Source: Fidelibacterota bacterium (lineage in GTDB: Bacteria > Fidelibacterota > UBA8477). Taken from it: a stretch of 25,626 nucleotides of DNA. The notes beneath the pieces are model-generated. The model worked only from the letters and a program-made list of their open reading frames with translations, had not been told where the DNA came from and searched no databases. A program made the translations under genes and the position numbers. The first letter of the stretch is position 1, and each line of letters opens with the position of its first letter. This document shows positions 7,824 to 25,626 of the stretch, piece after piece. Location: positions 1 to 25,626 of the forward strand of contig JAIPJR010000042.1 of the NCBI GenBank assembly GCA_021734045.1, given 5' to 3'.

Positions 7824-9782
7824 ATGAAGTTCCTGAAAAACCAAAAGGTGTTGCTGAGCATCGTGATTTTCATTGGATTAAGCATCCTCATGGTTGCCTG
7901 CCCAGCTACGAAAGAGGGCATCGGGACCGATGATGCTGCGGTGAAGACATATGTCCCACCGGGTGAACATGATGAATTTTACGCCTTCATGTCCGGTGGC
8001 TTCAGTGGACAGTTAACCGTTTACGGACTGCCGTCGGGACGTAAGTTTCGTACGGTTCCGGTGTTTTCCGTCCATCCTGAAAATGGTTGGGGATTCTCCG
8101 AGGAAACCAAGGCGATGTTCAATACCAGCTATGGTTTCGTACCCTGGGATGATGCCCACCACCCGGAGCTGTCCATGACGGAAGGCGTTCCCGATGGCCG
8201 GTACATTTTTATTAATGCCAATAATACACCGCGGGTAGCACGCATTGACCTGAGTCAGTTTGAAACGGTGGAAATTCTCGAAATTCCCAATTCTGCCGGG
8301 AATCACGGATCACCATTCGTCACCGAGAACACGGAATACATCATTGCCTCTACCCGTTTCAGTGTACCGATTCCGGAAGCCGATGTGCCCATTTCATCCT
8401 ACAAGGAAAATTTCAAGGGTACGCTGAGTTTCATCAAACTGGATGCCGAGGCGGAGGAAATGTCGCTGGATTTCCAGATCCTGGTGCCGGGCTATAATTA
8501 CGACCTGGCTCACGCCGGCAAGGGGCCGTCACGGGATTGGGCGTTTTTTACCACCTACAACACTGAAGAAGCAACGACCCTGTTGGAAGTGAATGCGTCC
8601 CGTAATGACAAGGATTTCGTCGCCGCGGTGAACTGGGCCAAAGCGGCGGAAGCTGTACGCGCCGGGAAGGCGAAGGAGATGCCGGCCAAATATTTCCGGA
8701 ATTACATGGATCACGATACACGGATCGCACACTCGGAGGAAAAAAAGACTGTCCGGGTCTTGAATCCGGCCGATGTCCCGGGCATGATTTACTTTCTGCC
8801 CACACCTAAATCGCCTCATGGTGTGGATGTGGATCCCACCGGAGAGTACATCGTCGGTAATGGTAAACTGGCCACGGTCCTGCCGGTACACAGTTTCAGT
8901 AAAATGCTGAAAGCGATTGAAAATGAAGCCTTTGAGACGGTCATCAATGGCATCCCGGTCCTGAAATATGACGAGGTTCTGGCGGGCGAAGTGCAGGACC
9001 CGGGTTTGGGACCCTTGCACACGGAGTTTGATAACAAGGGATTCGCTTACACCTCGGCTTTCATTACTTCTGAAATCGTGAAGTGGAATGTGGCCACGCG
9101 GGAAGTTGTGGATCGGATTCCCACCTACTATTCCATCGGACACCTGATGATTCCTGGTGGCGACAGTAAACAGCCCTGGGGTAAATATGTGGTGGCTCTG
9201 AACAAAATCACCAAAGATCGCTACCTGCCTACAGGACCTGAGTTGTGCCAGGCCGGGCAGCTCATTGATATCAGCGGTGATAAAATGAAGTTATTGCTGG
9301 ATTTTCCGCTGGATGGCGAACCCCATTATGCGCAAGGCATCCCGGCCAGTCTCATCAAAGACAAGTCGGTGCGCATATTTGAGTTGGAGAAGAACAATCA
9401 TCCCCACGCGATTAAGTCTGAAAAGCAGGCGCGTGTAGAGCGCGATGGTAATGATGTACACATCTATTTGTCCTCCATCCGGAGTCATTTCACACCGGAT
9501 AACATTGAGGGCATTAAAGTGGGTGACACGGTGTACTGGCATCTGACCAATCTGGAGCAGGATTGGGATGTACCGCATGGATTTGCGGTGAAGGGCGCCA
9601 ATAATGCCGAGCTGTTGGTGATGCCGGGCGAGACCCGGACCCTGAAATGGCAGCCGCAACGCCCGGATGTGTATCCCTTCTACTGTACGGATTTTTGTTC
9701 CGCGCTGCATCAGGAGATGCAGGGTTATGTTCGCGTCTCACCGGCGGGATCGGATGTGCCCATCACATTTAACGGACGTTAA
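7824..9782 (+). CDS. nosZ: Nitrous oxide reductase, clade II (Sec-exported)
   Basis: This is a 652-residue periplasmic enzyme reducing N2O to N2. The N-terminus is a plain Sec-like signal (no twin arginine) ending near MVAC, Cys 26, so it may be a lipoprotein; this marks the clade II form. The beta-propeller carries all seven CuZ histidines: H112 and H113 (DAHHPE), H161 (GNHGSP), H332 (SPHGVD), H399 (PLHTEF), H440 (SIGHLM) and H501 (EPHYAQ). The C-terminal cupredoxin domain carries CuA: H585 (VPHGFAV), C621, C625, H629 and M632 in CTDFCSALHQEM. The Trp of the classical CSWFC motif is replaced by Asp 623, as is common in clade II. GGAGGGAG at 7811-7818 precedes ATG 7824. All catalytic residues are present and the length is normal, so it should be functional. 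Confidence 0.98.
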   Translation: MKFLKNQKVLLSIVIFIGLSILMVACPATKEGIGTDDAAVKTYVPPGEHDEFYAFMSGGFSGQLTVYGLPSGRKFRTVPVFSVHPENGWGFSEETKAMFNTSYGFVPWDDAHHPELSMTEGVPDGRYIFINANNTPRVARIDLSQFETVEILEIPNSAGNHGSPFVTENTEYIIASTRFSVPIPEADVPISSYKENFKGTLSFIKLDAEAEEMSLDFQILVPGYNYDLAHAGKGPSRDWAFFTTYNTEEATTLLEVNASRNDKDFVAAVNWAKAAEAVRAGKAKEMPAKYFRNYMDHDTRIAHSEEKKTVRVLNPADVPGMIYFLPTPKSPHGVDVDPTGEYIVGNGKLATVLPVHSFSKMLKAIENEAFETVINGIPVLKYDEVLAGEVQDPGLGPLHTEFDNKGFAYTSAFITSEIVKWNVATREVVDRIPTYYSIGHLMIPGGDSKQPWGKYVVALNKITKDRYLPTGPELCQAGQLIDISGDKMKLLLDFPLDGEPHYAQGIPASLIKDKSVRIFELEKNNHPHAIKSEKQARVERDGNDVHIYLSSIRSHFTPDNIEGIKVGDTVYWHLTNLEQDWDVPHGFAVKGANNAELLVMPGETRTLKWQPQRPDVYPFYCTDFCSALHQEMQGYVRVSPAGSDVPITFNGR

Positions 9783-9800
9783 ATCGTTGAAAGAAAAATG

Positions 9801-9827
9801 GGAGGGGCGGAAAAGCCCCTCCTTTTT
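9801..9827 (+). terminator. Intrinsic terminator between nosZ and nosB-like
   Basis: GGAGGGGC (9801-9808), loop GGAAAA, GCCCCTCC (9815-9822), then TTTTT (9823-9827). It is a perfect 8-bp GC-rich stem with a T-run, 19 nt after the nosZ stop and 24 nt before the next gene. It should end or attenuate nosZ transcripts. Confidence 0.85.
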
Positions 9828-9850
9828 CAGCGGACTGCGAGAAACCTGAT

Positions 9851-10480
9851 ATGACGACTTCCAAGAAATCCACCACCGGAAAGACAAGCCGCTGGATAAT
9901 GCTGGCTGGCGTGCTACTGATGGGGTTGGTGTATGTGTTACCACTCTGGAAAATCACGCTGGAAGCACCTCAGTATCCGGAAGGTTTGGGCATGTACATC
10001 CGCATCAATACGGTTGAAGGTGTGGAAGCCAACAATCTGAATCAAATCAACAACCTGAATCACTATATCGGGATGAAGCCCATTCATCCGGACACTATTC
10101 CTGAGCTGAGAATCATGCCCTGGGTGGTGTTGGGCTTAATCATTTTGGGTCTTCTGGTGGTGTGGCGCTGGAAACGATCCCTTTTGACTGCATGGTTGTC
10201 CCTATTCACCTTGGTGGCAATTGTGGGATTGGTGGATTTCTATAAATGGGAATATGATTACGGACATAATCTGGATATGGAGAATGCCATTATCAAAGTT
10301 CCCGATATGAATTATCAACCGCCTTTGCTGGGATCAAGACAGTTGCTCAATTTCAAAGCCCACTCCTATCCCGCTGCAGGGGGATGGGTCATTTTCTTCA
10401 GCTTTGGATTGGCTGTCGCGGCTTTGGTAATGGAGATGAAACACGAAAAATCAGAGCCCGGGTCAGGGAAGGACGAATGA
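9851..10480 (+). CDS. nosB: NosB-like polytopic membrane protein of clade II nos clusters
   Basis: This is a 209-residue membrane protein with four predicted helices (about 15-33, 90-106, 112-130 and 174-194) and a periplasmic loop between the first two. The loop contains YPEGLGMYI and the conserved-looking NLNHYIGMKPI (residues 68-78). A second soluble segment (130-170) has KWEYDYGHNLD and a His/Met-containing stretch. Clade II nos clusters such as that of Wolinella place a polytopic protein, NosB, directly downstream of nosZ; its role in N2O respiration is not well defined. I assign NosB from position, topology and these motifs. His, Met and Tyr-rich loops would be compatible with copper or heme handling, but this is speculative. 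Its stop overlaps the nosL start by ATGA. Confidence 0.7.
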   Translation: MTTSKKSTTGKTSRWIMLAGVLLMGLVYVLPLWKITLEAPQYPEGLGMYIRINTVEGVEANNLNQINNLNHYIGMKPIHPDTIPELRIMPWVVLGLIILGLLVVWRWKRSLLTAWLSLFTLVAIVGLVDFYKWEYDYGHNLDMENAIIKVPDMNYQPPLLGSRQLLNFKAHSYPAAGGWVIFFSFGLAVAALVMEMKHEKSEPGSGKDE

Positions 10481-10944
10481 AGCGTCTTAATGTTCTAATA
10501 GCAGGTTTTTTCATCGTGGCGGTTCTTGCGGCTTGTACGACAGGACCCAGGGAAATTCAATACGGTTCTGACAGTTGTGCCCATTGTCTCATGACCATTA
10601 CCGACCCTAGATTTGCCACGCAACTGGTAACGGAAAAAGGGAAAGTCCACCTGTTTGATTCGGTGGAATGCCTGGCAGCCTTTGAGGAAAATGACGTATC
10701 CCCGAAGGTCCAACGATTTGTCAGTGATTTTGAGCGTCCGGGAGAGTTTCTGCTTCTAAATCAGGCCTACCTTCTGCGGGGGGAAAAATTACGCAGTCCC
10801 ATGGGCTTGAATCTGGCTGCATTCTCCACCACCAAAAATCCTGAGGAGTTGGCTGTTCATTATGGCGGTGAAATCCTGACGTGGAAAAAGGTGACAAAAA
10901 TTGTAGTGAATGCCTGGCAGCAGGGGCAACATCATTCCCCATGA
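10477..10944 (+). CDS. nosL: NosL copper chaperone lipoprotein
   Basis: This is a 155-residue lipoprotein (signal MKRLNVLIAGFFIVAVLAAC, lipid Cys 20) that supplies Cu(I) for NosZ maturation. The copper-binding region SCAHCLMTI (Cys 34, Cys 37, Met 39) is clear. The following DPRFATQLVTEKGKVHLFDS and VECLAAF segments are characteristic of NosL. ATG 10477 overlaps the NosB stop (ATGA), and an upstream in-frame start at 10384 is rejected because it would precede the signal peptide. The C-terminus overlaps the nosD start by ATGA. It is probably translated as part of one coupled operon with nosBDFY. Confidence 0.93.
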   Translation: MKRLNVLIAGFFIVAVLAACTTGPREIQYGSDSCAHCLMTITDPRFATQLVTEKGKVHLFDSVECLAAFEENDVSPKVQRFVSDFERPGEFLLLNQAYLLRGEKLRSPMGLNLAAFSTTKNPEELAVHYGGEILTWKKVTKIVVNAWQQGQHHSP

Positions 10945-12170
10945 GGCACCGGCATTTTTTCTTCCTGTTTATCTTTGTCAGCGCTGTGTTTTTGCACGGG
11001 AAAACGTGGGTGGTGAAAACACCCACGCTGGCGCAGATCATCACCGCGGCAGAGCCTTTCGACACCATTATTGTGGATGGTGGTATTCACCGGAACACGC
11101 CCTACGAGATCCGGAAACCATTGGTATTAATAGGGGAGAATGGCCCTGTGCTGGACGGTGGCGGCAAGACTGAAATTCTCATCGTCCATCATGATTCGGT
11201 GGTGATACGCGATCTGACATTCCAAAACGCTGGGATTAGCTTTGTGGATGACAATGCGGCATTACGCATTGAAAAAGCAAGCCACATCCGAGTGGAAAAT
11301 AACCGGTTTAAGGACAATTTTTTCGCAGTCTATCTGGCTCAGGCTGCTCAGTGTACCATTCGCAACAACCATATCACGGCCAGTAATATTCGCGAGACCA
11401 ACTCCGGGAATGGCATTCACCTGTGGTATTGTGAGGATATTCTCATTGAAGGAAATCAGGTGAGTGGTCAACGGGACGGGATTTATTTCGAATTTGTCAT
11501 GAATGGGCGGATTCGGAACAATCTGAGTGAAAATAATCTGCGGTACGGACTCCATTTCATGTTCAGCGATACGTGTGAGTACACGGAAAACACCTTCCGA
11601 AATAATGGCGCTGGTGTAGCGGTGATGTACACCGAAGCGGTGAAAATGCACCGGAATCTTTTCGTTGATAATTGGGGAAGTGCATCCTACGGGCTGCTAT
11701 TGAAGGAAATCCGGGATAGTGAAATCACCCACAATATTTTCCGTGGGAATTCGGTGGGAATTTACACCGAATCATCCAACCGGGTGATGGTAAGTCAAAA
11801 TGATTTTCTGGAGAATGGTTGGGGGGTAAAAATCCAATCCAGTTCGCTGGAAAACGTGTTTACAGCCAACAATTTTATCGGGAATTCCTTTGATATTGCC
11901 ACAGCCGGTCGTCAAAACCACAGCCGGTTTGACGGGAATTATTGGGACAAATACACGGGCTATGATTTGGATCGGGATGGTGTGGGGGATGTGGCGTTTC
12001 GTCCGGTACGGCTTTTCGCATACATCGTGCAACAGAATCCACCGGCACTCATTCTGATGCGGAGTTTGTTCGTTGACCTGCTGGACCGGGCCGAACGCCT
12101 GTTACCTGTCATCACGCCGCCCACACTGCAGGATAATCGACCGCTCATGGAGAGGGTTAACCCTCTATGA
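10941..12170 (+). CDS. nosD: NosD, periplasmic right-handed beta-helix CuZ assembly protein
   Basis: This is a 409-residue protein with a Sec signal (MRHRHFFFLFIFVSAVFLHG). Many imperfect CASH/parallel beta-helix repeats follow (I-x-x-N-x-h patterns such as IRVENNRFKDNFFAVYL, CTIRNNHI, ILIEGNQVSGQRDGIYFEF). The GIHLWYC and GLHFMFSDTCEYTENTF stretches and the end of the helix (FDGNYWDKYTGYDLDRDGVG) are typical NosD. NosD works with the NosFY transporter to build the CuZ cluster of NosZ; recent work shows it interacts with NosL for copper handover. ATG 10941 overlaps nosL, and its stop overlaps nosF, both ATGA. The last codons lie in a 16-bp palindrome at the nosF ribosome site. Confidence 0.95.
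   Translation: MRHRHFFFLFIFVSAVFLHGKTWVVKTPTLAQIITAAEPFDTIIVDGGIHRNTPYEIRKPLVLIGENGPVLDGGGKTEILIVHHDSVVIRDLTFQNAGISFVDDNAALRIEKASHIRVENNRFKDNFFAVYLAQAAQCTIRNNHITASNIRETNSGNGIHLWYCEDILIEGNQVSGQRDGIYFEFVMNGRIRNNLSENNLRYGLHFMFSDTCEYTENTFRNNGAGVAVMYTEAVKMHRNLFVDNWGSASYGLLLKEIRDSEITHNIFRGNSVGIYTESSNRVMVSQNDFLENGWGVKIQSSSLENVFTANNFIGNSFDIATAGRQNHSRFDGNYWDKYTGYDLDRDGVGDVAFRPVRLFAYIVQQNPPALILMRSLFVDLLDRAERLLPVITPPTLQDNRPLMERVNPL
12151..12166 (+). promoter_or_regulatory. 16-bp palindrome/hairpin over the nosF ribosome site
   Basis: AGAGGGTTAACCCTCT is a perfect palindrome ending directly before the nosF ATG. In RNA it can fold as a 6-bp stem with a TTAA tetraloop, hiding the GAGGG Shine-Dalgarno. Ribosomes finishing nosD would open it, so it could couple nosF to nosD translation. 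Confidence 0.4.
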
Positions 12171-12880
12171 TCAAAATCTGTGAGCTATACAAATCGTTTG
12201 GAGCGCTGCAGGTACTCACCGGAGTGAACCTTTCCATCGAAGCCGGGAAAATCACGGCAATTCTTGGACCCAATGGCTCGGGAAAGACGACCCTCATTAA
12301 ATCCATCCTGGGATTGGTAAAACCGGACCGGGGTGAGATTCAGGTGGGCGGGGAGGTTTTGAACGGGGATTGTCGGTATCGGAATGCTATCGGGTACATG
12401 CCCCAGATCGGTCGTTTTCCGGAAAATCTGAGTATGCAGGATTTAATGAAAATGCTCACGGATTTGCGGGGTGGTGTGCACCGCGATGAGAACGACCGGC
12501 TGGCGCAATTTAGCCTGCATCAGGAAATGGACAAACCGCTGGGAACGCTGTCCGGTGGGACCCGTCAAAAAGTGAGTGCGATACTGGCCATGTTATTCAA
12601 TCCTAAAATCCTGATTTTGGATGAGCCCACGTCCGGCCTGGATCCGGTCGCCTCCAGCGTACTTAAGGATACGCTGGTAACGGAACGGGACACGGGTAAG
12701 ACCGTGATTTTTACATCACACATCATGAGTGAGGTAGAAGAATTGGCGGATGTGGTAGTCTTTTTACTGGATGGCAAAATCCAGTTCCACGGACCACCGG
12801 ATGAAATTCTGCGGGATACCGGTGAAGCCAATCTAGAGCGGGGCATCGCGCGGATTATGCAGGATCGGGCGACTGCATGA
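12167..12880 (+). CDS. nosF: NosF, ABC transporter ATPase
   Basis: This is a 237-residue cytoplasmic ATPase. Walker A is GPNGSGKT (34-41), the Q-loop Gln is at about 80 (YMPQ), the signature is LSGGT (128-132), Walker B is ILILDEP (148-154), the D-loop is SGLDP and the H-loop His is 185 (TSHIMSE). It pairs with the NosY permease and NosD to energise CuZ maturation of NosZ. Spacing to nosD is an ATGA overlap, and the stop likewise overlaps nosY. Confidence 0.95.
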   Translation: MIKICELYKSFGALQVLTGVNLSIEAGKITAILGPNGSGKTTLIKSILGLVKPDRGEIQVGGEVLNGDCRYRNAIGYMPQIGRFPENLSMQDLMKMLTDLRGGVHRDENDRLAQFSLHQEMDKPLGTLSGGTRQKVSAILAMLFNPKILILDEPTSGLDPVASSVLKDTLVTERDTGKTVIFTSHIMSEVEELADVVVFLLDGKIQFHGPPDEILRDTGEANLERGIARIMQDRATA

Positions 12881-13668
12881 GAACGATTGGAAAAATCATC
12901 AAGTACGAAGTGCGTGATATCCTGCGGAGTAAATTTGTGCTCTTCTACTTCATTTTTTTTCTACTCCTCACCGAAGGGTTGCTCCGCTTTGGCGGCGGCA
13001 GTACGAAAACGCTGGCAAGTCTTAGTAATGTGGTTCTCCTGGTGATTCCCTTAATGGCGATCATTTTTGGTGCTATGTATCTGTACCATTCACGGGAATT
13101 CACTGAACTACTGCTTACCCAACCGGTAAACCGGCACCAGCTTTTTACCGGTCTGTATTTGGGGCTGGCGGTGCCGTTGGGGTTGAGTTTTGGCGCAGGG
13201 TTGGGGCTGCCCTTTCTTTTTCACGGTTTTGACGATGCAGGTGATGTCATGCTGCTCCTGGTGATGATTGGCAGTGGTGTATTTCTGACCTTCATTTTTA
13301 CTGCTCTTGCCTTCTGGATTTCCGTAGCCTATAACGAACGGGTGAAGGGTCTGGGTATATCTATCGTGCTGTGGCTCTTTTTTGCTGTGATTTATGACGG
13401 ACTGGTATTGCTGGTGGTGGCCTGGTTTGCCGATTATCCGCTTGAGAAAGCGGTCATTACCTTCACCCTTTTCAATCCACTGGATTTAGCGCGTATTCTG
13501 CTGCTCCTGCAGATGGATGCCTCGGCACTCATGGGCTATACCGGGGCGGTTTTTCAACGCTTTTTCGGCAGTTTCTGGGGGATCAGTACGGCAGCCACAG
13601 CATTAATGGTGTGGACCGTGATGCCCTTCTGGATGGGGATGCGGAAATTCACGCAGAAAGATTTTTAA
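12877..13668 (+). CDS. nosY: NosY, ABC transporter permease
   Basis: This is a 263-residue integral membrane protein with six predicted helices, an amphipathic start (TIGKIIKYEVRDILRSKFVL) and a short central loop (REFTELLLTQPVNRHQLFTG), which is the coupling region typical of ABC-2 type permeases of the NosY kind. Helices are rich in Leu/Val/Phe, and the C-terminal ends in KFTQKDF. It is coupled to nosF by ATGA overlap. It is the last gene of the tightly coupled nosB-L-D-F-Y block, followed by a 100-bp gap. Confidence 0.92.
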   Translation: MRTIGKIIKYEVRDILRSKFVLFYFIFFLLLTEGLLRFGGGSTKTLASLSNVVLLVIPLMAIIFGAMYLYHSREFTELLLTQPVNRHQLFTGLYLGLAVPLGLSFGAGLGLPFLFHGFDDAGDVMLLLVMIGSGVFLTFIFTALAFWISVAYNERVKGLGISIVLWLFFAVIYDGLVLLVVAWFADYPLEKAVITFTLFNPLDLARILLLLQMDASALMGYTGAVFQRFFGSFWGISTAATALMVWTVMPFWMGMRKFTQKDF

Positions 13669-16538: not shown

Positions 16539-16997
16539 ATGCCGAATTCAGTTGACAAACAGATTCAATCCACAGGGGAGACATGGTACACCCCCGGGCA
16601 GATTGCCAGGGAGTTGAACATCTCTGTGGAGACACTGCGGCTGTATGAGCGGGAAGGATTGGTCATTCCCGAGAAGGCAGCTTCCGGACATCGGCGGTAC
16701 AATGATCAGGATTTAGCATGGATTGCAGCCATTCGTAAGCAGATTCATGATCATAAATTGAATTTTGCCGGAATCCGTTACCTGCTGTCCATGCTGCCCT
16801 GCTGGGAGATTAAGAATTGCTGTTTGGGTGCGAATTATATGGATTGCCCTGCCAAGCAGGTCAATGACAAGCCGTGCTGGTCAATGCCTGACACACCGTG
16901 CAAAACAAGTGGTGAAAGCTGTCGCGACTGTCCCATCTATGCGATGGCTGCTGATATAGATACTTTCAAACAAAAACTGGCGGTAAAGTTACGATGA
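16539..16997 (+). CDS. MerR-family regulator fused to a cysteine-rich two-CW-like domain
   Basis: This is a 152-residue protein. Residues 16-82 form a MerR helix-turn-helix (YTPGQIARELNISVETLRLY, then GHRRYNDQDLAWI and LNFAGIRYLL). Instead of a dimerisation helix plus short metal loop, the C-terminal part has eight cysteines: C88, C94, C95, C103, C113, C121, C128 and C131. They sit in PCWEIKNCC, DCPA, KPCWSMPDTPC and SCRDCPIY. This order (CWExKxC ... CPA ... CW ... C ... C-x2-C-P-x-Y) resembles the two-CW domain of unknown function, so a redox, metal or Fe-S sensor is likely. AGGA at 16528-16531 serves ATG 16539. Its stop overlaps the multiheme cytochrome start (ATGA), so it probably controls that cytochrome. 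Confidence 0.85.
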   Translation: MPNSVDKQIQSTGETWYTPGQIARELNISVETLRLYEREGLVIPEKAASGHRRYNDQDLAWIAAIRKQIHDHKLNFAGIRYLLSMLPCWEIKNCCLGANYMDCPAKQVNDKPCWSMPDTPCKTSGESCRDCPIYAMAADIDTFKQKLAVKLR

Positions 16998-18505
16998 AGA
17001 GCAAACTGTGGATTTCCCTGCCGATTCTGGCATTCGCACTTCTGTTCTGGCAGTGTGAAAAAATCTCATCCAACACGGATGTATCTGATACGGCTCAGAC
17101 GTGTGAAGGCTGTCATACCGATTTGGCAGCATTGAACGCACTGGCGCAGGTGCCGGTGGATGATGGTCACGGTGAGGTGCCTGGGTGAGGTGGCGGATTG
17201 GAGCCGTTGGCTCCCAAGTATCGTGTCTATATCCGCCTGATGGGAAACCAGGAAAGTTTTGCGGATGTTGATTCAATCCATGGGAAGATTGGCTGTACCG
17301 GGTGTCATGGCGGTATTTCACCGGTGGATGAAGGTTCGGACGCCGCTGCAATGAATGCTGCGCATCAGGGTATGGTACGAGATCCTTCGGAAGATGCCGA
17401 AACCAGTTGTGGTGGCGGATTGTGCCACGGTGATATCGCCCGCCGGAATGCCACCAGTATCCACACCAATCTGTGGGGTGAGAAAGCCCATGTGGCTCAG
17501 CGTTATGGAGGGGAAGGCTTCACTTTTGACCAATGTCCGGAGAGCACCAAATCAGGTTATCAAGCGAATTGTTATGGGTGTCATACCTCTTGCGGGCAGT
17601 GTCATATCAGTCGTCCCACAACGGCTGGAGGTGGTTTTGCCGGAAGTACATTGGGTGGGAATCACAAGTTTATCCGCGAACCCAGTGAGACGTACAATTG
17701 CACCGCCTGCCATGGTGGCCGGATAGGTATGGACTGGGCAGGCACGATTGAAGGCAATCAGCCCGATGTGCATAAGATTTTTGGCATGACCTGTACCGAT
17801 TGTCACACGGAAGATTTTCACGGGGACGGTCCCGGTGATGCCCAATATACCTCGCGGTACGAGGTTGATGGTCTGCCTGACTGTTATACCTCCTGCCACG
17901 GCGCTGATTCGGATGATAATCTGTATCATCAAGCCCATTGGGCCGGTCAGGGGACCAGTGGCGACATCACCTGCTACGCTTGTCATTCACAGCAGTATGA
18001 CAACTGCAATACCTGTCATGCAGGGAGTTATACCGAGGAATACAACCAACCGGGTGGCTATAAAGTATATCAGGATTTCAAAATCGGATTAAATCCCAAT
18101 TACGGTATCTCCGGGAAAACGCACAACCATGAAAAATGGATTGTGGTCCGGCATATTCCTGTCTCCCGTGATGCGTATAAAAATTGGGGTCTTGAAACGC
18201 TGGCGTACTACGAGTCGATTCCCACATATAAATACACCAGCCCGCACAATATTCAGCGCTGGACCAGCAGAACACTGGCTGACAGCACCTGGTTATTACC
18301 TGACAGTACATCTTACACTGCCCAGACCTGCGCGGACAACTGTCACTATCACCGGGTGAATGTCCCGGGGAATCCCCAGGCGACATTCTACCTGTTGAGT
18401 GCACAAATGGATAATCTTGAACAGAGCGATGAGAAGGGCGCAAACGCCAATGTCACCCTGGATGACAATGGTTCTGTGCAATGCGCTCATTGCCATAATC
18501 ATTAA
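16994..18505 (+). CDS. Multiheme cytochrome c (up to 12 hemes) with one in-frame TGA; possible selenoprotein
   Basis: The frame runs from ATG 16994 (overlapping the MerR stop) to 18505 with a single in-frame TGA at codon 65 (17186-17188). Before it are a lipoprotein-like signal (MKSKLWISLPILAFALLFWQ, then Cys 21) and the first heme site CEGCH (37-41). After it come about 438 uninterrupted codons holding eleven more heme sites: CTGCH, CGGGLCH (CX4CH), CYGCH, CGQCH, CTACH, CTDCH, CYTSCH (CX3CH), CYACH, CNTCH, CADNCH (CX3CH) and CAHCH. The paralogue at 19973 aligns across the TGA, so both parts belong to one protein. The TGA is flanked by Gly (VPG-TGA-GGG) and followed by a SECIS-like hairpin. 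Options are selenocysteine, a recent nonsense mutation or a sequencing error. Restart at TTG 17198 would give a product without a signal peptide. Confidence 0.7.
17186..17216 (+). promoter_or_regulatory. In-frame TGA with bacterial SECIS-like hairpin
   Basis: After the TGA (17186-17188), 17 nt lead to the apical loop GTT (17206-17208), closed by a perfect 6-bp stem GGAGCC/GGCTCC (17200-17205, 17209-17214). TT/AA pairs at 17198-17199 and 17216-17217 extend it around a bulged C. The distance to the loop and a G at the first loop position fit the general bacterial SECIS geometry (about 16-37 nt, G in the first two loop bases). The call is from geometry only. Confidence 0.45.
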
Positions 18506-18542
18506 TTGAAACCTTAACGAAACCTGAATGGGGGAGACAACC

Positions 18543-19520
18543 ATGAAACGCTACTTGACACTTCTGTTATCCGTCGTGGTCATGCTGGGACTCATGTCTG
18601 GCTGTACCAAAGATGATGACGATGATAACGGGACAGGAACGGAGCTGACTTCGTTCGAAAAACTCACAACCTATATGTCTGAGCAGAGCCTGGATCTGCC
18701 GGATGTTTTGACCGGATGGCTTATTGGTGCATCAACACTGGTAGGAAATGAAGATGATTATTTCATCGTAGATATTCGGTCGGAAGCACTCTATGATGCC
18801 GGTCATATACCGGGGGCACATAATGCCACATTAGCTGATGTGGTGGATTATGTCGATGTCCACAATACGGACATGAAGCCCGTTGTCATCGCCTGCTACA
18901 CCGGCCAATCAGCCTGTCGCGCCGTGGTGGCGTTGCGAATGAGCGGATATAGTGATGCCGCCAGCCTGGGCTTTGGTATGAGTTCGTGGCATTCAACGCT
19001 GGACAACTGGTCCGGAAACACGGCCTCCACTGGCGTGGGGCATTCCAATTGGTCCACCGATGCGGCGCCGGCATTACCAACCTTTACCGATGAGCCTACC
19101 ATTACCACGACAGCCACTGAAGGTGCGGACATTCTGGCTGCACAGGTTGAGTATATGCTGGCCAAATCCGGTTGGGGTATCAATGCCAGTGATGTATTGG
19201 ATGCACCGTCCAGCTTCACCATTTTCAATTACTGGGGTGCAAGCGATTATGATACATACGGTCATATCGCGGGTGCTTATCAGCTAACACCCGGTTCCCT
19301 CACCATCGCCGCCGATGGCTTGCAGGTTCTCGATCCCGTGGGCACCAATGTGATTTATTGCTGGACGGGTCAAACCTCTTCCATGGTTACTGCCTGGTTG
19401 GATCTGTTGGGCTATGATGCGAAAAGCCTGCGTTTTGGTGCCAACAGCATGATCTACTCGGAGCTTGCAGGGCACAAGTGGACAGGTTCCGCAGACTATA
19501 CACTGGTTCCCAGTGAATAA
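18543..19520 (+). CDS. Double-rhodanese lipoprotein
   Basis: This is a 325-residue exported protein with lipobox LMSGC (Cys 21) and an acidic linker (DDDDD). The first rhodanese domain (about 60-155) has YFIVDIRSEALYDAGHIPGA and active-site Cys 118 in the loop CYTGQSACR. The second (about 195-315) has the degenerate YGHIAGAYQLTPG and Cys 273 in the loop CWTGQTSSM. Rhodaneses move sulfane sulfur or bind sulfide, so this one may handle periplasmic sulfur species. GGGGGAG at 18530-18536 serves ATG 18543. It sits between two paralogous multiheme cytochromes and is followed by a strong terminator, so it probably ends the merR-cytochrome operon. A link to sulfur respiration is inference. Confidence 0.87.
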   Translation: MKRYLTLLLSVVVMLGLMSGCTKDDDDDNGTGTELTSFEKLTTYMSEQSLDLPDVLTGWLIGASTLVGNEDDYFIVDIRSEALYDAGHIPGAHNATLADVVDYVDVHNTDMKPVVIACYTGQSACRAVVALRMSGYSDAASLGFGMSSWHSTLDNWSGNTASTGVGHSNWSTDAAPALPTFTDEPTITTTATEGADILAAQVEYMLAKSGWGINASDVLDAPSSFTIFNYWGASDYDTYGHIAGAYQLTPGSLTIAADGLQVLDPVGTNVIYCWTGQTSSMVTAWLDLLGYDAKSLRFGANSMIYSELAGHKWTGSADYTLVPSE

Positions 19521-19597: not shown

Positions 19598-19972
19598 ATA
19601 ACAGACGCCTGTTGAGAAAAACAAACGGGTTCCCTGCAGAAAAGATGAGCGTTTTTTGAAATATTTCCGGTTTTAGATGCAAGGTTAAGGCGACAACTAC
19701 GGGGGTTTTGGAATAGTTGTCATTTATTAAATTTTGTTATCTATCCGGCAAATAGTTATGTTTGTCAACGATGAAGGTTGGCATACGCTTTGTTGAACTG
19801 TATTCGAAAAAATGCAGCCTCGACAGGAGCGAAAGAGTCGGCCAAATCCAAATGACAACAACACATGAACTGAATAGTAGCCCATGACACTTCCCGGAAC
19901 GACACATCTCGCCCACACGCGCTCTTTTCCACGGAAAAATGAATCACCAAAGATCTTGTGGGTATGATGTTC
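19598..19972. other. Non-coding stretch before the second multiheme cytochrome
   Basis: These 375 bases contain no convincing gene; short open frames on the minus strand have no ribosome site or family resemblance. The stretch is AT-rich in its centre and holds an 8-bp inverted repeat (19692-19721). A promoter and operator for the downstream cytochrome operon presumably lie here, but I see no consensus -35/-10 pair. Confidence 0.45.
19692..19721. promoter_or_regulatory. 8-bp inverted repeat, possible operator
   Basis: GACAACTA (19692-19699) and TAGTTGTC (19714-19721) are perfect reverse complements with a 14-bp G/T-rich spacer, giving a 30-bp dyad. It lies in the AT-rich upstream region of the second multiheme operon. 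No T-run follows, so termination is unlikely. Confidence 0.4.
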
Positions 19973-21448
19973 ATGAGGTTGCGCAACGTCTTACCACTTC
20001 TGCTTCTGAGCTTGCTATTCTGGCAATGTGACCGCATCGACCAGACCACCGGTGTTTCCGAAGGTGAGGAAACTTGCGAAAGCTGTCACACCAATCAGCT
20101 CCTGCTAACCAGTCTGGCGACTACAGCGGGTAACAGTGACGCCGCCGGTCATCTTGCGCCACTCTCGGCAGTTCAGCGAGTACACATTCGTCTGGACGCC
20201 GGAGAAGAAAGCTTTGCGGATGTCGACAGTATCCACGCGCGGGTGACCTGCTCGGGCTGCCACCGTGGTGTGAATCCGGTTTCAGAGGAGAATGAACAGA
20301 AGGCTCTGGCCGCTGCCCATAAGGGGCTGGTGTCCGACCCCTCCCGGGATTCTGATATCGGCTGCGGGGGAGCGCTTTGCCACAGTGATATTGTGCGGAA
20401 ACATGCCACCTCCATCCATCGTCAATCCTGGGGAGCAAAATGGGATCTGGCGATTCGATTTGGTGGCCCGGGCTCAACAGTTGCCGACCTGCCGCCGGGC
20501 GTTGCGGAAAATTTTGAAAGTGTGCAATTATTGGAAATTGCCACGTGTGGTGAATGCCATGTGAGCCGGCCGGATCGGCTGAAGGGTGGCTTCGCGGGGA
20601 ATGCAACTGGTGGCAACCACAAATTTATCCGGCATCCGGATGTGGAAAACACATGTACGGCCTGTCACAGCAATACAATTGGTGCAGAATGGCGTGGCGA
20701 GGTGACTGGAACGAATCCCGATGTGCATGCCAATTTTGGGTTCACCTGCACCACTTGTCACACGGAAGATTTACACGGGAATGGCGAGATAGACCGGGAG
20801 ATTACATCGGTTTATGATGTGGTGGGAATAGCCAGTTGCTATTCGCCCTGTCACAGCAATGATGCTGATGATAACCTGTTTCACCAGGTGCATTGGGCTG
20901 AGTCAGACAATTCTATGAAATCAGTGAGCTGTTTCGTCTGCCACAGCCAGAATCTCAACCATTTTGAAGGGGGATATCCGGAAAATACAGACTTGGTTTA
21001 TGCAGATTTTAAAGTGGGTTTGAATCCCGGGTATCAAAATGGCGGGACACCCCACGAGAATGAAAAATGGCAGGTTGTGCGGCATACGCCTGTTCCCCGG
21101 ACGATTACCCGGGATGACTGGGGGGTTGCGCTGGAATATTTTGATGAACTGCCCACCTATAAACGCGCCAGTCCCCACAATATTCAGCGCTGGACTATCC
21201 GGACGCTTGTGGACAGCACATGGCTGGCCGGAGGTAACTATGACGCCGAACAGTGCTATGAAAATTGCCACCTCCACGGTGTATCGGAGGATGGAACAAT
21301 AGCCGGTCCGCTACAGACATTTTACCTGATGAGTGACTATCTGGAGGAGCGGGGGCAGTCGGATGAAATTCTTGCTAATGAGCGTGTCACAGTTGATGAA
21401 AACGGTCAATTATTCCCTGGTGGGTGCGACACTTGTCATGGTGGATGA
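19973..21448 (+). CDS. Decaheme-type multiheme cytochrome c, paralogue of the one at 16994
   Basis: This is a 491-residue exported cytochrome. The signal (MRLRNVLPLLLLSLLFWQC) ends in the same FWQC as the paralogue, so both may be lipoproteins with an unusual -1 Gln. Ten heme sites are visible: CESCH, CSGCH, CGGALCH (CX4CH), CGECH, CTACH, CTTCH, CYSPCH (CX3CH), CFVCH, CYENCH (CX3CH) and CDTCH. Shared blocks with the paralogue include ESFADVDSIH, CHTEDxHG and the stretch SPHNIQRWT...RTL...DSTWL. It lacks the glycine-rich segment that carries the TGA in the paralogue, and it has two fewer heme sites. ATG 19973 is chosen by alignment; ATG 19967 or 19964 are possible, as no ribosome site decides. 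It likely carries electrons in the periplasm or at the outer membrane. Confidence 0.85.
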   Translation: MRLRNVLPLLLLSLLFWQCDRIDQTTGVSEGEETCESCHTNQLLLTSLATTAGNSDAAGHLAPLSAVQRVHIRLDAGEESFADVDSIHARVTCSGCHRGVNPVSEENEQKALAAAHKGLVSDPSRDSDIGCGGALCHSDIVRKHATSIHRQSWGAKWDLAIRFGGPGSTVADLPPGVAENFESVQLLEIATCGECHVSRPDRLKGGFAGNATGGNHKFIRHPDVENTCTACHSNTIGAEWRGEVTGTNPDVHANFGFTCTTCHTEDLHGNGEIDREITSVYDVVGIASCYSPCHSNDADDNLFHQVHWAESDNSMKSVSCFVCHSQNLNHFEGGYPENTDLVYADFKVGLNPGYQNGGTPHENEKWQVVRHTPVPRTITRDDWGVALEYFDELPTYKRASPHNIQRWTIRTLVDSTWLAGGNYDAEQCYENCHLHGVSEDGTIAGPLQTFYLMSDYLEERGQSDEILANERVTVDENGQLFPGGCDTCHGG

Positions 21449-21496
21449 GTCCGCGTTATCAATTATCAGCATGAAGATGCGGTGAGAGGATTACGA

Positions 21497-22366
21497 TTGA
21501 ATCGGATAATGGTGGTTAAGCGCAGATTTTTCCTCTTGCTGGTGACCCTTAGCCTGCTATTCACCCAGGCTGTCATGGCGCAAGAGGCGCCACTCACCTT
21601 CCCGGGAAAGACGAATCCTCATAACGGTGATGATTGTTTAGTGTGCCATACGCGTGATGGGGAGCCGGGTAAATCCAATTTTATCAAAAATGTGTGTGTT
21701 ACCTGCCACTCAGCTGCTGCGGTGGATAAGCAAATTCATCTTTTACAGGGTGCCAATCCCGCATCTGAGAATATTGCTGTTCCGGAAGATTTTCCTCTAA
21801 CCAATGAAACACTGGATTGTCTTACCTGCCACGCGGTAGCCTGTAAACCTGATCGCTCCAATAAAAACTTTTTACGGGGCGGACCCTATAAGACCGAGCT
21901 GGATTTTTGCTATCAATGCCATCAGAGTCAGGGTTACCAGCCGGTAAATCCTCACGACCAACTGCGTGTCGATGGTTCACAGGACAACGCCACCTGTTTG
22001 CATTGCCATATTAAAATTCCCACTGCTGAGGATCATCCCACCATCTCCAACGCCATGCATCTTGACATGACGGCCACCTGCAACAAATGCCATGCTCTGC
22101 ATCAACATGAGTCCAATCATCAGGGGCGCGATCTCTTCCATTCAAAAAAAGCTGTGGCAGCCAGATTTCAGGAGACACAGACGCGTTATCAGATCAAGAT
22201 GCCCCTGTCTGAAGACCGGAAAATCCAGTGTAATACATGCCACAATCCTCATGAGCGTGGGTTGTTATCAACTGAAAATGTGGTGTATGAAAAATCCTCC
22301 GAGTCGAATGCTCATTATCTCAGACTGTCAAAAGAAAAATTGTGTTATGGATGCCATGACTTGTAA
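21497..22366 (+). CDS. Periplasmic octaheme cytochrome c
   Basis: This is a secreted cytochrome of about 289 residues, with a signal peptide (RRFFLLLVTLSLLFTQAVMA, then QEAPL). It has eight CXXCH sites: CLVCH, CVTCH, CLTCH, CYQCH, CLHCH, CNKCH, CNTCH and CYGCH. Sites are spaced and paired like the doubled-CXXCH family of MtrA/DmsE-type and related proteins, with extra His residues for bis-His ligation. TTG 21497 is favoured because GAGAGGA lies 6 nt before it; ATG 21509 is the alternative, 12 bp later. It follows the decaheme gene by 48 bp and precedes the cytochrome b fusion by 38 bp, so it is a probable soluble carrier between that inner-membrane complex and other cytochromes. Confidence 0.85.
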   Translation: MNRIMVVKRRFFLLLVTLSLLFTQAVMAQEAPLTFPGKTNPHNGDDCLVCHTRDGEPGKSNFIKNVCVTCHSAAAVDKQIHLLQGANPASENIAVPEDFPLTNETLDCLTCHAVACKPDRSNKNFLRGGPYKTELDFCYQCHQSQGYQPVNPHDQLRVDGSQDNATCLHCHIKIPTAEDHPTISNAMHLDMTATCNKCHALHQHESNHQGRDLFHSKKAVAARFQETQTRYQIKMPLSEDRKIQCNTCHNPHERGLLSTENVVYEKSSESNAHYLRLSKEKLCYGCHDL

Positions 22367-22404: not shown

Positions 22405-24105
22405 GTGAAGAGCCCCCTTTTAAGAACATTCGGAAAATTCCTCATCCTGACTGTGGTACTGTTAGGCAATGCGTGGGTTAATCCCGCATTCGCTCAGGAT
22501 AATCAGAATTGTCTCAACTGCCATCAATACCCTCTATTTGCCCGGATCTCGGAGGAGGATGGGAAACTCCACAATTTCTATGTGGATGCTGAGATGTATG
22601 CCAATTCGGTTCACAGCGGCCTGGCCTGTACCGATTGTCACTCAGATGTTGAAAAAATTCCCCATGATCCGATTCCCAAACCGGTGAACTGCAATCAGGC
22701 CTGCCACACACTGGATCCTTTCACACAGCGACCCTTCAGTCATAGCGGTGTATTTGAGGATTGGGAAGTGTCGGTTCACGGCCCCAAAAATGACGGCAAA
22801 GACCATCTGCGACCCGAGTGTAAAGATTGTCATGTGAATCCACTACAGCTCCATCCCGTGAGCGCGGAATTCCAGAAGCTTTCGGAAAATTGCATTAAAT
22901 GTCATGAAGAGGAAAATATCACCACCGCAGTGAAACATGTGGACTTCCACTCCAATCCGGAACGCTATTGGACCCAGCAGCGGCGCCTGGAGGTGTGTGC
23001 CGCCTGTCATACGGATGCCAGCATTTTAGGCGAGCAAACCGATATTCTCCATGATGATGTGGTTTCCAGCTTCCTGAAATCTTTCCATGGTGTGGGATTC
23101 GCATTTGGTGACAAGAAAACGCCGGTTTGTAATGATTGTCATGATTACCACGGGGTTTTCCCTCAGAATGATGTACGCTCTACCATTAATGAAGCCAATC
23201 TACGGGAAACCTGTTCCGGCACCGGCTGTCATGCCAATGTCTCTCGGGATTTTATCCAGGGCTCCATGCACTTCCGCTACGAAGGTTGGCAAGCGGATGT
23301 TTTGAAATGGGTCCGCTGGATTTGGACCACGCTGATAATTGGTGTGATTGGATTTATGCTCATCCATAACACCATGGATTTTATCCGCACCCGGATTATT
23401 CTGAAAAAACATGGCTATCCGCCTCCCACGCGGCTGCAAAAACGGTACGCCCGCATGAACAAAACCGACCGGGTCAGTCATATCATCATGTTTAGTTCCT
23501 TCACCGGGCTCGCTCTTACCGGTGCATTGCTTTGGGTCCCGGCAGAACAGCTGAACTGGTTACCGGATTGGCTGTATCTGGTGGAGGTTCGCTTCTGGGG
23601 TCACCGCTTTTTCGCGCTGATTCTAACGCTGATAAGCCTGTTTCATATTGGCTATGCGATTTTCACCAAGCGCGGTCGTGGACTATTGGCGGAAATGTTT
23701 CCCAAACCATCCGATGCGTTGCACATTTTTCAAAATATCGCGTTCATGCTGGGTATGCGAAAAGAGCCTCCCCAAATGCCCTGGTTTAACTATGCCGAGA
23801 AAATGGAATACTGGGCTTTTGCCTGGGGTAGTTTTGTCATGACCTTCACCGGTGTGGTCATGATGCTGGAGCAACTGGGCCCCAAATTTTGGGTCGACGT
23901 GGCACGCATTATCCACTCACTTGAAGCGATCCTGGCAGTATTGGCCATTGTGGTGTGGCATTTTTATCTGGTGCATTGGAAGCCAGGGAAATGGCCCATG
24001 AGCAACGTGTGGATTACCGGTGAAATCTCCGAGTGGGATATGAAAGAGGAGCATGCCGGTGCACTGGAACAGCTAAGTAAGTCGAGCGAGGCGAATGATG
24101 CGTAG
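22405..24105 (+). CDS. Multiheme cytochrome c / cytochrome b fusion (CbcL-like quinone oxidoreductase)
   Basis: This is a 566-residue protein. The signal peptide ends in PAFA (27-30). A periplasmic domain carries eight c-heme sites at about residues 36, 75, 96 (CNQACH, CX3CH), 139, 163, 198, 242 and 270 (CSGTGCH, CX4CH). From 303 onward a membrane domain has about five helices with His ligands typical of FdnI/HydC-type diheme cytochromes b: HNTMDF (321), SHIIMF (359), GHRFF (400), SLFHIGY (414), IIHSLEA (504) and WHFYLVHW (519-524). This arrangement is that of CbcL from Geobacter, an inner-membrane menaquinol oxidase for extracellular electron transfer. GTG 22405 is the likely start. It overlaps the next gene by 11 bp, so the two are translationally coupled. 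Whether it feeds the multiheme proteins outward or also NosZ cannot be told. Confidence 0.85.
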   Translation: MKSPLLRTFGKFLILTVVLLGNAWVNPAFAQDNQNCLNCHQYPLFARISEEDGKLHNFYVDAEMYANSVHSGLACTDCHSDVEKIPHDPIPKPVNCNQACHTLDPFTQRPFSHSGVFEDWEVSVHGPKNDGKDHLRPECKDCHVNPLQLHPVSAEFQKLSENCIKCHEEENITTAVKHVDFHSNPERYWTQQRRLEVCAACHTDASILGEQTDILHDDVVSSFLKSFHGVGFAFGDKKTPVCNDCHDYHGVFPQNDVRSTINEANLRETCSGTGCHANVSRDFIQGSMHFRYEGWQADVLKWVRWIWTTLIIGVIGFMLIHNTMDFIRTRIILKKHGYPPPTRLQKRYARMNKTDRVSHIIMFSSFTGLALTGALLWVPAEQLNWLPDWLYLVEVRFWGHRFFALILTLISLFHIGYAIFTKRGRGLLAEMFPKPSDALHIFQNIAFMLGMRKEPPQMPWFNYAEKMEYWAFAWGSFVMTFTGVVMMLEQLGPKFWVDVARIIHSLEAILAVLAIVVWHFYLVHWKPGKWPMSNVWITGEISEWDMKEEHAGALEQLSKSSEANDA

Positions 24106-24874
24106 AAGATACCGCGGTCTGGGATATTTGTTCTTCCTGTTAATTGTCATCACCGCCACCATCATGGCTGTGAGTTTCTACCAACGTCTGACGAATCCGG
24201 ACACCAAGCCGGCTGAAATCCTTGTTCCCCGCGCCATGGAGGATACGGTGCGCATGAAGGCCGATCATGCCTACATTCTGGAAGCGCTTCCCAATGACTA
24301 CAATGCCAGCCATGAGAATTTCCACTACTATCCCGGCATTAAAATGGTGGCGCAGGAGAAACGGTCGGCCTGTCTGCTCTGCCACACGATTCTACCGCAC
24401 AATAAGAATATTCGTAACCGGGCTTTCCTGAACTTGCATTCCGGTTATGTGGCTTGCACCACCTGTCACCTGGCGGATTCAACGAATGTGAGTTTCACCT
24501 GGCTGGATACCGAAACTGGCAAGCTGGTGGTGGGGGTCGAACGACCGGAAACCCGTTGGAAAGATGTGGGGAAATACCAATTGGTTCCGGTTCGGGATAG
24601 TACGGTGCTCTATACCCCGCAGGATTCTCCGCATCTCGCCGCTCGTCTGGCTCAAAATGCGCTGGAAGATTCGGCCATGGCTGCCGATTTGCGAGAAGAG
24701 CTGGAAGCGGGAATTATGATGACCGGCCGAGCCTGCAAACGGTGTCATACCCAGGATGGGTTTATTGATTTCCGGGCGGCGGGCTATCCGGAAGAACGGG
24801 CGTCTGAACTGGAATCACTAAGTACGCCATCGGTTTTCGAGAGTTATGAAAATTTCTACATGCCGACCAAATAA
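24095..24874 (+). CDS. Membrane-anchored triheme cytochrome c
   Basis: This is a 259-residue protein with one N-terminal helix (YLFFLLIVITATIMAVSFYQ, 11-30) that anchors it to the inner membrane, facing the periplasm. Three heme sites are CLLCH (93-97), CTTCH (121-125) and CKRCH (214-218), with His-rich segments before the first (ASHENFHYYPG). I do not recognise it as NapC/NirT, which have four hemes in a shorter protein. It overlaps the preceding cytochrome b fusion gene by 11 bp and is followed after 1 bp by the NHL-repeat gene, so it is probably a subunit or partner of the same complex. Confidence 0.8.
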   Translation: MMRRRYRGLGYLFFLLIVITATIMAVSFYQRLTNPDTKPAEILVPRAMEDTVRMKADHAYILEALPNDYNASHENFHYYPGIKMVAQEKRSACLLCHTILPHNKNIRNRAFLNLHSGYVACTTCHLADSTNVSFTWLDTETGKLVVGVERPETRWKDVGKYQLVPVRDSTVLYTPQDSPHLAARLAQNALEDSAMAADLREELEAGIMMTGRACKRCHTQDGFIDFRAAGYPEERASELESLSTPSVFESYENFYMPTK

Positions 24875-24875
24875 C

Positions 24876-25626
24876 ATGATATTGCTGCGAACCTTCATAT
24901 TTATCGCCTTGTTCGGCTCTCAGATTCTGGCAGCACTGCCACAAGCCACGGTTGTGCGCACCCTGAAGGCCAATATGTCCTTTCCCACCGACGTGGCGGT
25001 ATTATCCGACGGTCGTGTGCTGGTGGTGGATGGCGTGAACAGTGATGTGATGATTTTCCGGCAGAATGGAACGGTACAGCCCTTCACCAGTCGCGAGTTC
25101 CAGCGTCCCCTGGGGATTTTCGTGGATGATCAGGATCGCATTTACATCACGGATACCAAAGCCGGTTTGCTGCTCATTTTCGATAAAAAGTTGAGTTTGC
25201 AGTCACGCATTTCCCTGGCTGCTGACATTGATCCCACAGATGTGGTGGCGGTGGGAGATTATCTGTATGTGGTGAACAATGACGGCCACCAATTGGTGAA
25301 GCTGGATCGCCAGGGGCGGGAAATTTTGCGGCTGGGCAATGAGGGTCGTAATCGCGGACAATTCAAATATCCGGCTACTGTGGCGGTGGATGTTGCGAAG
25401 AATATGTACGTGGTGGATGTTTTTAACGGCCGGGTCCAGATGGTGAGCAATACCGACCGGTTTTTGGGTCAATACGGAGAATGGGGCGTGACCACCGGTC
25501 AACTGTTCCGACCCAAGGGTGTGACCATTGGTGCTGAGGGACAGGTTTATGTCACCGACAGTCTGCTGGGGGTCATCCAGATTTTTTACCCGGGCCGACG
25601 CTCGCCGGAAGTTTTACTGGACACTG
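24876..25626 (+). CDS. NHL-repeat (beta-propeller) protein, truncated by window end
   Basis: The frame opens at ATG 24876, one base after the previous stop codon, and is still open at the window edge (250 codons). The start is a Sec signal (MILLRTFIFIALFGSQILAA). Repeats follow of the kind FPTDVAVLSDGRVLVVDGVN, RPLGIFVDDQDRIYITDTKA, YPATVAVDVAKNMYVVDVFN and RPKGVTIGAEGQVYVTDSLL: NHL repeats forming a beta-propeller. No catalytic residues are evident. NHL proteins are often found next to multiheme cytochrome complexes of electron-transfer operons and may serve as scaffolds. The rest of the gene lies beyond the window. Confidence 0.85.
   Translation, partial: MILLRTFIFIALFGSQILAALPQATVVRTLKANMSFPTDVAVLSDGRVLVVDGVNSDVMIFRQNGTVQPFTSREFQRPLGIFVDDQDRIYITDTKAGLLLIFDKKLSLQSRISLAADIDPTDVVAVGDYLYVVNNDGHQLVKLDRQGREILRLGNEGRNRGQFKYPATVAVDVAKNMYVVDVFNGRVQMVSNTDRFLGQYGEWGVTTGQLFRPKGVTIGAEGQVYVTDSLLGVIQIFYPGRRSPEVLLDT

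Follow-up and report, generated by a model that had tools for sequence, protein, structure and literature searches.

The in-frame TGA codon at positions 17186-17188 of the analysed DNA (25,626 nucleotides, the whole of which is called the window here) is very probably a true selenocysteine (Sec) codon, in a gene predicted to encode a 12-heme cytochrome c lipoprotein; from the comparative sequence evidence we put the probability of this reading at about 0.96. Translation of the frame 16994-18505 with TGA read as Sec (U) yields 503 residues; the only U is at codon 65, in the context VPG-U-GGG. Of the twelve heme motifs, nine are CXXCH, two CX3CH and one CX4CH; one lies before the TGA and eleven lie after it. 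These results bear out the sequence-only reading, which had described a 503-codon frame interrupted solely by the TGA at 17186, with this codon in a Gly-rich segment (VPG-TGA-GGG) behind the first heme and eleven heme motifs intact past it. The start of the gene overlaps the stop codon of the merR gene (ATGA), and the copy in a sister genome is 91-92% identical. The gene and its elements are as follows:

16994-18505, plus strand: gene of the predicted Sec-containing 12-heme cytochrome c lipoprotein; 503 amino acids with TGA as Sec, TAA stop codon, full-length homologues
16994-17056, plus strand: predicted signal peptide with a lipobox-like end (LLFWQC, Cys21), from the sequence; Cys21 at least 90% conserved in the family
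17102-17116, plus strand: heme motif 1 (CEGCH), before the TGA; invariant in the family
17186-17188, plus strand: in-frame TGA, predicted Sec codon 65, motif PG-U-GGG; Sec in 45 and Cys in 26 homologues
17200-17214, plus strand: SECIS-like hairpin GGAGCC-GUU-GGCUCC; covariation in five of six pairs, absent from Cys homologues
17294-18496, plus strand: heme motifs 2-12, ten of the eleven kept family-wide; motifs 2-6 start at 17294, 17408 (CX4CH), 17570, 17591 and 17699, and motifs 7-12 at 17792, 17882 (CX3CH), 17972, 18005, 18329 (CX3CH) and 18482

The first homologue search covered 60 related genomes and found homologues in 24, most of which have exactly one in-frame TGA. Alignment of the TGA-bearing relatives at the codon-65 region placed the TGA at the identical column, and since this holds for most homologues from other species, the codon is not there by chance. 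A wider scan of 388 relatives gave 79 loci. Among the sampled sequences the column, which the sequence-only reading had proposed to inspect for Cys or further TGA codons, is occupied by TGA in 45, by TGC or TGT in 26 and by something else in nine, the last group including the sister genome's copy of a paralogue of the cytochrome. The motif can be written G-[U/C]-G-G, with the flanking G conserved. An in-frame UGA in a conserved frame and Cys homologues at the Sec position, two of the criteria for bacterial selenoproteins, are thus both found. Sec forms occur in Neomarinimicrobiota, Calditrichota, Krumholzibacteriota and Eisenbacteria; the nearest named genome to the window's assembly is a Candidatus Neomarinimicrobiota MAG (L049). 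Cys forms come mostly from Ignavibacteria and relatives, and were found in Ignavibacteria, Kapabacteria, Bacteroidota-labelled bins, Desulfobacteraceae and a Planctomycetota bin. A tree built with the column left out requires at least two exchanges between Sec and Cys, one of them recent, as the Cys-bearing L063 is nested in a Sec clade. Seven loci (L058, L061, L080, L083, L095, L096 and L103) have D, H, Y, G, S, W or R at the column with their hemes intact. Because such homologues, and the window's own paralogue, are without Sec or Cys, the residue is not needed in every member and is sometimes dispensable.

A single in-frame stop in a single gene could also be a recent nonsense mutation, or a miscalled TGG or TGC, in a pseudogene or a faulty assembly, and the 435-residue frame after the TGA could indeed start at TTG 17198. 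Independent MAGs from four or more phyla, however, share the TGA at this column, so it is not a read error; in addition, the heme motifs are all kept, the sister copy is 91-92% identical and a covarying hairpin follows the codon. This explanation was rejected on the conserved column and is very improbable; the sequence-only reading had already argued against an old pseudogene from the intact hemes. Genome-wide recoding of TGA to Trp or Gly, to which the Gly-rich surroundings of the codon might point, is more improbable still. TGA serves as the normal stop codon of nine of the 23 window genes, among them the 1132 gene, nosB, nosL, nosD and nosF, and no other of the 23 genes examined contains an in-frame TGA; moreover, the usual alternative at the column is Cys, not Gly or Trp, and the genome has the full Sec machinery. 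The normal TGA stops led us to reject a recoded genome, in agreement with the sequence-only reading, which had considered it unlikely on the same grounds.

The machinery was sought in the window's assembly (2.54 Mb in 119 contigs), and all four genes for which a search had been proposed, selA, selB, selC and selD, were found there; their joint presence in the genome is a further criterion for bacterial selenoproteins. None of the outcomes that the sequence-only reading had named as refuting came up, and no result of the analysis spoke against Sec. selA (E=1e-129) adjoins selB on contig C31, and the SelB match (E=3e-108) is over the cut-off and includes the C-terminal winged-helix domain. A tRNA-SeC was called by ARAGORN with a tca anticodon (UCA in RNA) and scores above the Rfam gathering score. 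The frame of selD is itself broken by one TGA, in AAG-U-AGK, which indicates that SelD has Sec as well. Among the relatives, SelB over the cut-off was found in 13 of the 18 Sec-form genomes versus four of the 23 Cys-form genomes (p=0.001, for related genomes that are not independent); the four Cys-form genomes with SelB are three Desulfobacteraceae and L063. SelB is also present in six of the seven genomes with a residue other than Sec or Cys at the column. A full selB was not seen in five of the 18 TGA-bearing MAGs, and selA was not seen in G012, probably due to incompleteness of these assemblies.

Bacterial SECIS elements are hairpins directly 3' of the UGA, with the loop 16-37 nt away from it and a G at the loop start. 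The hairpin at 17200-17214 has these properties: its apical loop, GUU, begins 17 nt after the UGA, and its stem covaries. At this distance GUU is found in 39 of the 45 Sec forms and GCU in the others. The covariation test was carried out on 34 distinct Sec sequences, with near-duplicates and the Krumholzibacteriota-type forms, whose stem is paired differently, left out. In this set 93% of the stem cells are paired and compensatory changes on both sides occur in five of the six stem pairs. The covariation score was 0.517 versus 0.166 for shuffled alignments, none of 500 shuffles scored as high, and sliding the partner gave 0.18 or less; as the sequences are related, the shuffle counts are not to be taken as probabilities, and the slid controls and the Cys control are concordant with them. 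Across the whole set, each stem position is paired in 34 to 40 of the 45 Sec sequences versus 2 to 21 of the 26 Cys sequences, and the mean best hairpin has an energy of -7.5 kcal/mol in Sec forms versus -1.6 in Cys forms (p=6e-10). The encoded amino acids change along with the stem (for example EPLA, VPLA, VPLV, VPLE and APLE), so the conservation of the hairpin is not merely a consequence of protein conservation. A hairpin with a G in its loop at SECIS distance had been noticed in the window sequence before, and the comparison supports it as a feature of the Sec forms that is missing in the Cys forms. The published loop criteria and the covarying stem agree with a SECIS element; an Rfam search of the hairpin region returned no SECIS match, and its single hit, to a vertebrate lncRNA family, is put down to chance.

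We also compared the neighbourhood of the cytochrome gene between loci. The genes around it in the window are the following:

16539-16997, plus strand: MerR-family regulator with a Cys-rich C terminus (PF13411); upstream of the cytochrome in 29 of the 79 loci
18528-19520, plus strand: tandem-rhodanese lipoprotein with two active-site loops, CYTGQS and CWTGQT (PF00581, E=4.7e-18)
19958-21448, plus strand: cytochrome paralogue, about 50% identical, with no Sec or Cys at the column in the alignment with homologues
21482-22366, plus strand: multiheme cytochrome (PF09699, PF14537); a neighbour in 16 loci
22405-24105, plus strand: multiheme domain fused to a b561-type membrane cytochrome (PF01292, E=3e-11); in 33 of the 79 loci
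24095-24874, plus strand: small multiheme cytochrome in the same cluster, from profile matches and the neighbourhood scan

The tandem-rhodanese gene lies directly 3' of the cytochrome gene in 65 of the 79 loci, in several phyla and in Sec and Cys forms alike, and in a complete Kapabacteria genome the two form a bare two-gene unit. Because the rhodanese alone stays beside the cytochrome across phyla, these two genes make up the conserved unit, a pairing that, like the Sec coding, the Sec/Cys exchange and the hairpin, is apparent from the sequences themselves. Most loci have two rhodanese active-site loops of the form C-x-[TS]-G-Q-[ST], and none of the loci examined has Sec at these loops. L064, L066, L078 and L089 have the partner rhodanese as two tandem copies, adjacent or fused, which bear three to four active-site loops. 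It is chiefly in Neomarinimicrobiota that merR (29 loci), the further cytochromes and the b561-multiheme fusion (16-33 loci for these) accompany the pair. The C terminus of the MerR-type regulator, PCWEIKNCCLGANYMDCPA...PCW...C...C..CP, is reminiscent of a chemoreceptor/sensor kinase motif; the protein, given its place upstream of the cytochrome in 29 loci, may be a metal or redox sensor that controls the cytochrome-rhodanese pair. The cytochrome at 21482-22366 is a probable electron-transfer partner in Neomarinimicrobiota, and the b561-multiheme fusion is a candidate for the quinol-side entry or exit of electrons. The paralogue at 19958-21448 has lost the Sec/Cys segment; past its stop codon, a TGA, the reading frame runs on uninterrupted for 305 codons, reaching into the following cytochrome gene. 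The cytochrome cluster ends with a frame at 24876-25626 that leaves the window and by eye resembles a beta-propeller (NHL-repeat-like) protein. Elsewhere in the window, 7824-13668 holds a nitrous oxide reductase operon whose NosZ is of the Sec-exported, secretion-pathway type (TIGR04246, 946 bits); of the 79 loci, only L049 and L082 were seen to have this operon next to the Sec cytochrome cluster. A small gene pair on the minus strand at 1856-2445 resembles by eye a MazE/MazF-type toxin-antitoxin system.

We infer the export of the cytochrome, its redox role, the direction of electron flow and its substrate, the last two and the partnership with the rhodanese from the gene neighbourhood and the general chemistry of Sec, Cys and rhodaneses. 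In the proposed mechanism, SelB and tRNA-Sec (made by SelA and SelD) would read the UGA at the hairpin just 3' of it. The product would be exported as a cytochrome c lipoprotein carrying 12 hemes, its single Sec lying between hemes 1 and 2 in a flexible loop rich in Gly, and would work with the tandem-rhodanese lipoprotein encoded directly downstream. Exchange of Sec and Cys at one residue is a mark of a redox-active selenol, and the reactive group would most likely be the selenolate, or the thiolate in Cys homologues. Electrons would travel through the hemes between this group and the respiratory chain, perhaps by way of the b561-multiheme protein at 22405-24105 in this genus, and the rhodanese would be a donor or acceptor of sulfane sulfur (persulfide, polysulfide or thiosulfate) or a selenium analogue. 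The constancy of the rhodanese partner points to such compounds, and the likeliest function appears to be redox conversion of sulfane-sulfur or selenium compounds outside the inner membrane; that redox chemistry of sulfur or selenium is the main role we give approximately even odds.

The protein may instead serve mainly to conduct electrons, in extracellular electron transfer or in metal reduction; in that case Sec would tune or protect a heme or anchor a partner, and the rhodanese would be an accessory, as in the ext cluster of Geobacter, which likewise pairs a rhodanese with a Sec cytochrome. A lipoprotein with about 12 hemes in 500 residues, neighbouring multiheme cytochromes and a b561-multiheme fusion, and weak matches to the ExtM cytochrome model in 27 of 76 family members, well under the cut-off, would suit this role. 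However, the rhodanese is the only partner kept across phyla, the scan with the window proteins as probes revealed no porin-like gene among the conserved neighbours, and the exchange of Sec and Cys at a single position suggests that chemistry takes place there; a conduit is possible, with odds clearly short of even. In TsdA-type enzymes a cysteine ligates a heme, and residue 65, which sits between hemes 1 and 2, could similarly be an axial ligand of a selenolate-ligated heme c (thiolate-ligated in Cys forms). Eleven heme motifs are conserved throughout the family versus nine outside His residues that are at least 90% conserved, and some heme may therefore be without a His ligand. The loop is modelled with low confidence (pLDDT about 60), however, and homologues have D, H, Y or G at the column; we consider ligation unlikely. 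The fullest version of the sulfur or selenium reading would be a new multi-phylum enzyme family in which Sec is the catalytic centre, possibly as a heme ligand, of an 11-12-heme respiratory cytochrome that, together with the tandem rhodanese, respires or oxidises sulfane-sulfur or selenium compounds outside the inner membrane, with Cys in the Ignavibacteria-type clade; this combination we propose only tentatively.

The family appears to be undescribed. Pfam, NCBIfam and PDB contain no entry for it beyond generic heme-motif models, a PDB sequence search found nothing, a 2026 inventory that covers 119 families does not list it (PMC13188914), and no paper describing it in Neomarinimicrobiota, Calditrichota or Krumholzibacteriota was found in the open-licence literature. 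Automatic annotation would be expected to cut the Sec forms short at the TGA or to divide them there, and the family would thereby stay hidden in databases. The claim of the sequence-only reading that a Sec-containing multiheme cytochrome is undescribed was too wide in general, since ExtKL and octaheme Sec forms have been predicted, and appears to hold for this family, which fits neither profile. The octaheme tetrathionate reductase family (TIGR04315), which has GenBank-annotated Sec forms according to a 2026 review (PMC13188914), is likewise multiheme, and one of its structures, 1sp3, is the best structural match of our model; it has eight hemes, whereas the window protein has 12 motifs. The AlphaFold model (pLDDT 79, pTM 0.77, Sec loop about 60) aligned with 1sp3 in VIA-align with a Z score of 7.6, at the chance-match level of the tool, and an rmsd of 4.5 over 273 residues, the aligned range beginning at residue 92, past Sec; Foldseek gave no significant fold match (1sp3, E=0.086). 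TIGR04315 matches one of the 76 members, weakly, and not the window protein; the sole match in the window's genome is the 24095 gene (22.8 of 375 bits). ExtM (NF040943), of the selenite/tellurite reduction operon, is also a 12-heme cytochrome. The window protein is unmatched by its model, and the two member matches examined reach 23.5 and 33.4 bits versus a cut-off of 800, over about 55 of 599 positions; these two reflect heme-motif similarity only. The CXXCH-containing GSU2204 family, also listed in the 2026 inventory (PMC13188914), is not among the families matched by the 76 members (NF041027).

Another close parallel is ExtKL of Geobacter sulfurreducens (GSU2937-2936, NF040886), a multiheme cytochrome with TGA-encoded Sec and a rhodanese-family lipoprotein, ExtH, in its cluster, which was first predicted in 2007, has a proposed role in selenite reduction and was reported without non-Sec homologues (PMC1914089, PMC5877670, PMC6148476). 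NF040886 matches none of the 76 members (E<=1e-3), and elsewhere in the window's own genome it matches only partially and weakly (30.8 of 250 bits). The window rhodanese, which is unmatched by any ExtH model in NCBIfam, resembles ExtH-type proteins in being a rhodanese-family lipoprotein, predicted to be exported and encoded beside a multiheme cytochrome; it differs in having two active-site-loop domains in most loci and in pairing with an 11-12-heme cytochrome. The two Sec cytochromes share the TGA-encoded Sec in a c-type multiheme protein and the rhodanese lipoprotein in the cluster, but ExtKL has five hemes, all N-terminal to Sec, followed by a heme-free C-terminal part (PMC1914089, PMC5877670, PMC6148476), whereas 11 of the 12 motifs of the window protein lie past Sec. 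Sec in multiheme cytochromes is barely explored, ExtKL being one predicted family that was studied indirectly; a broad family with natural Sec and Cys forms and one constant partner gene would make the role of Sec testable in cultured Cys-form relatives.
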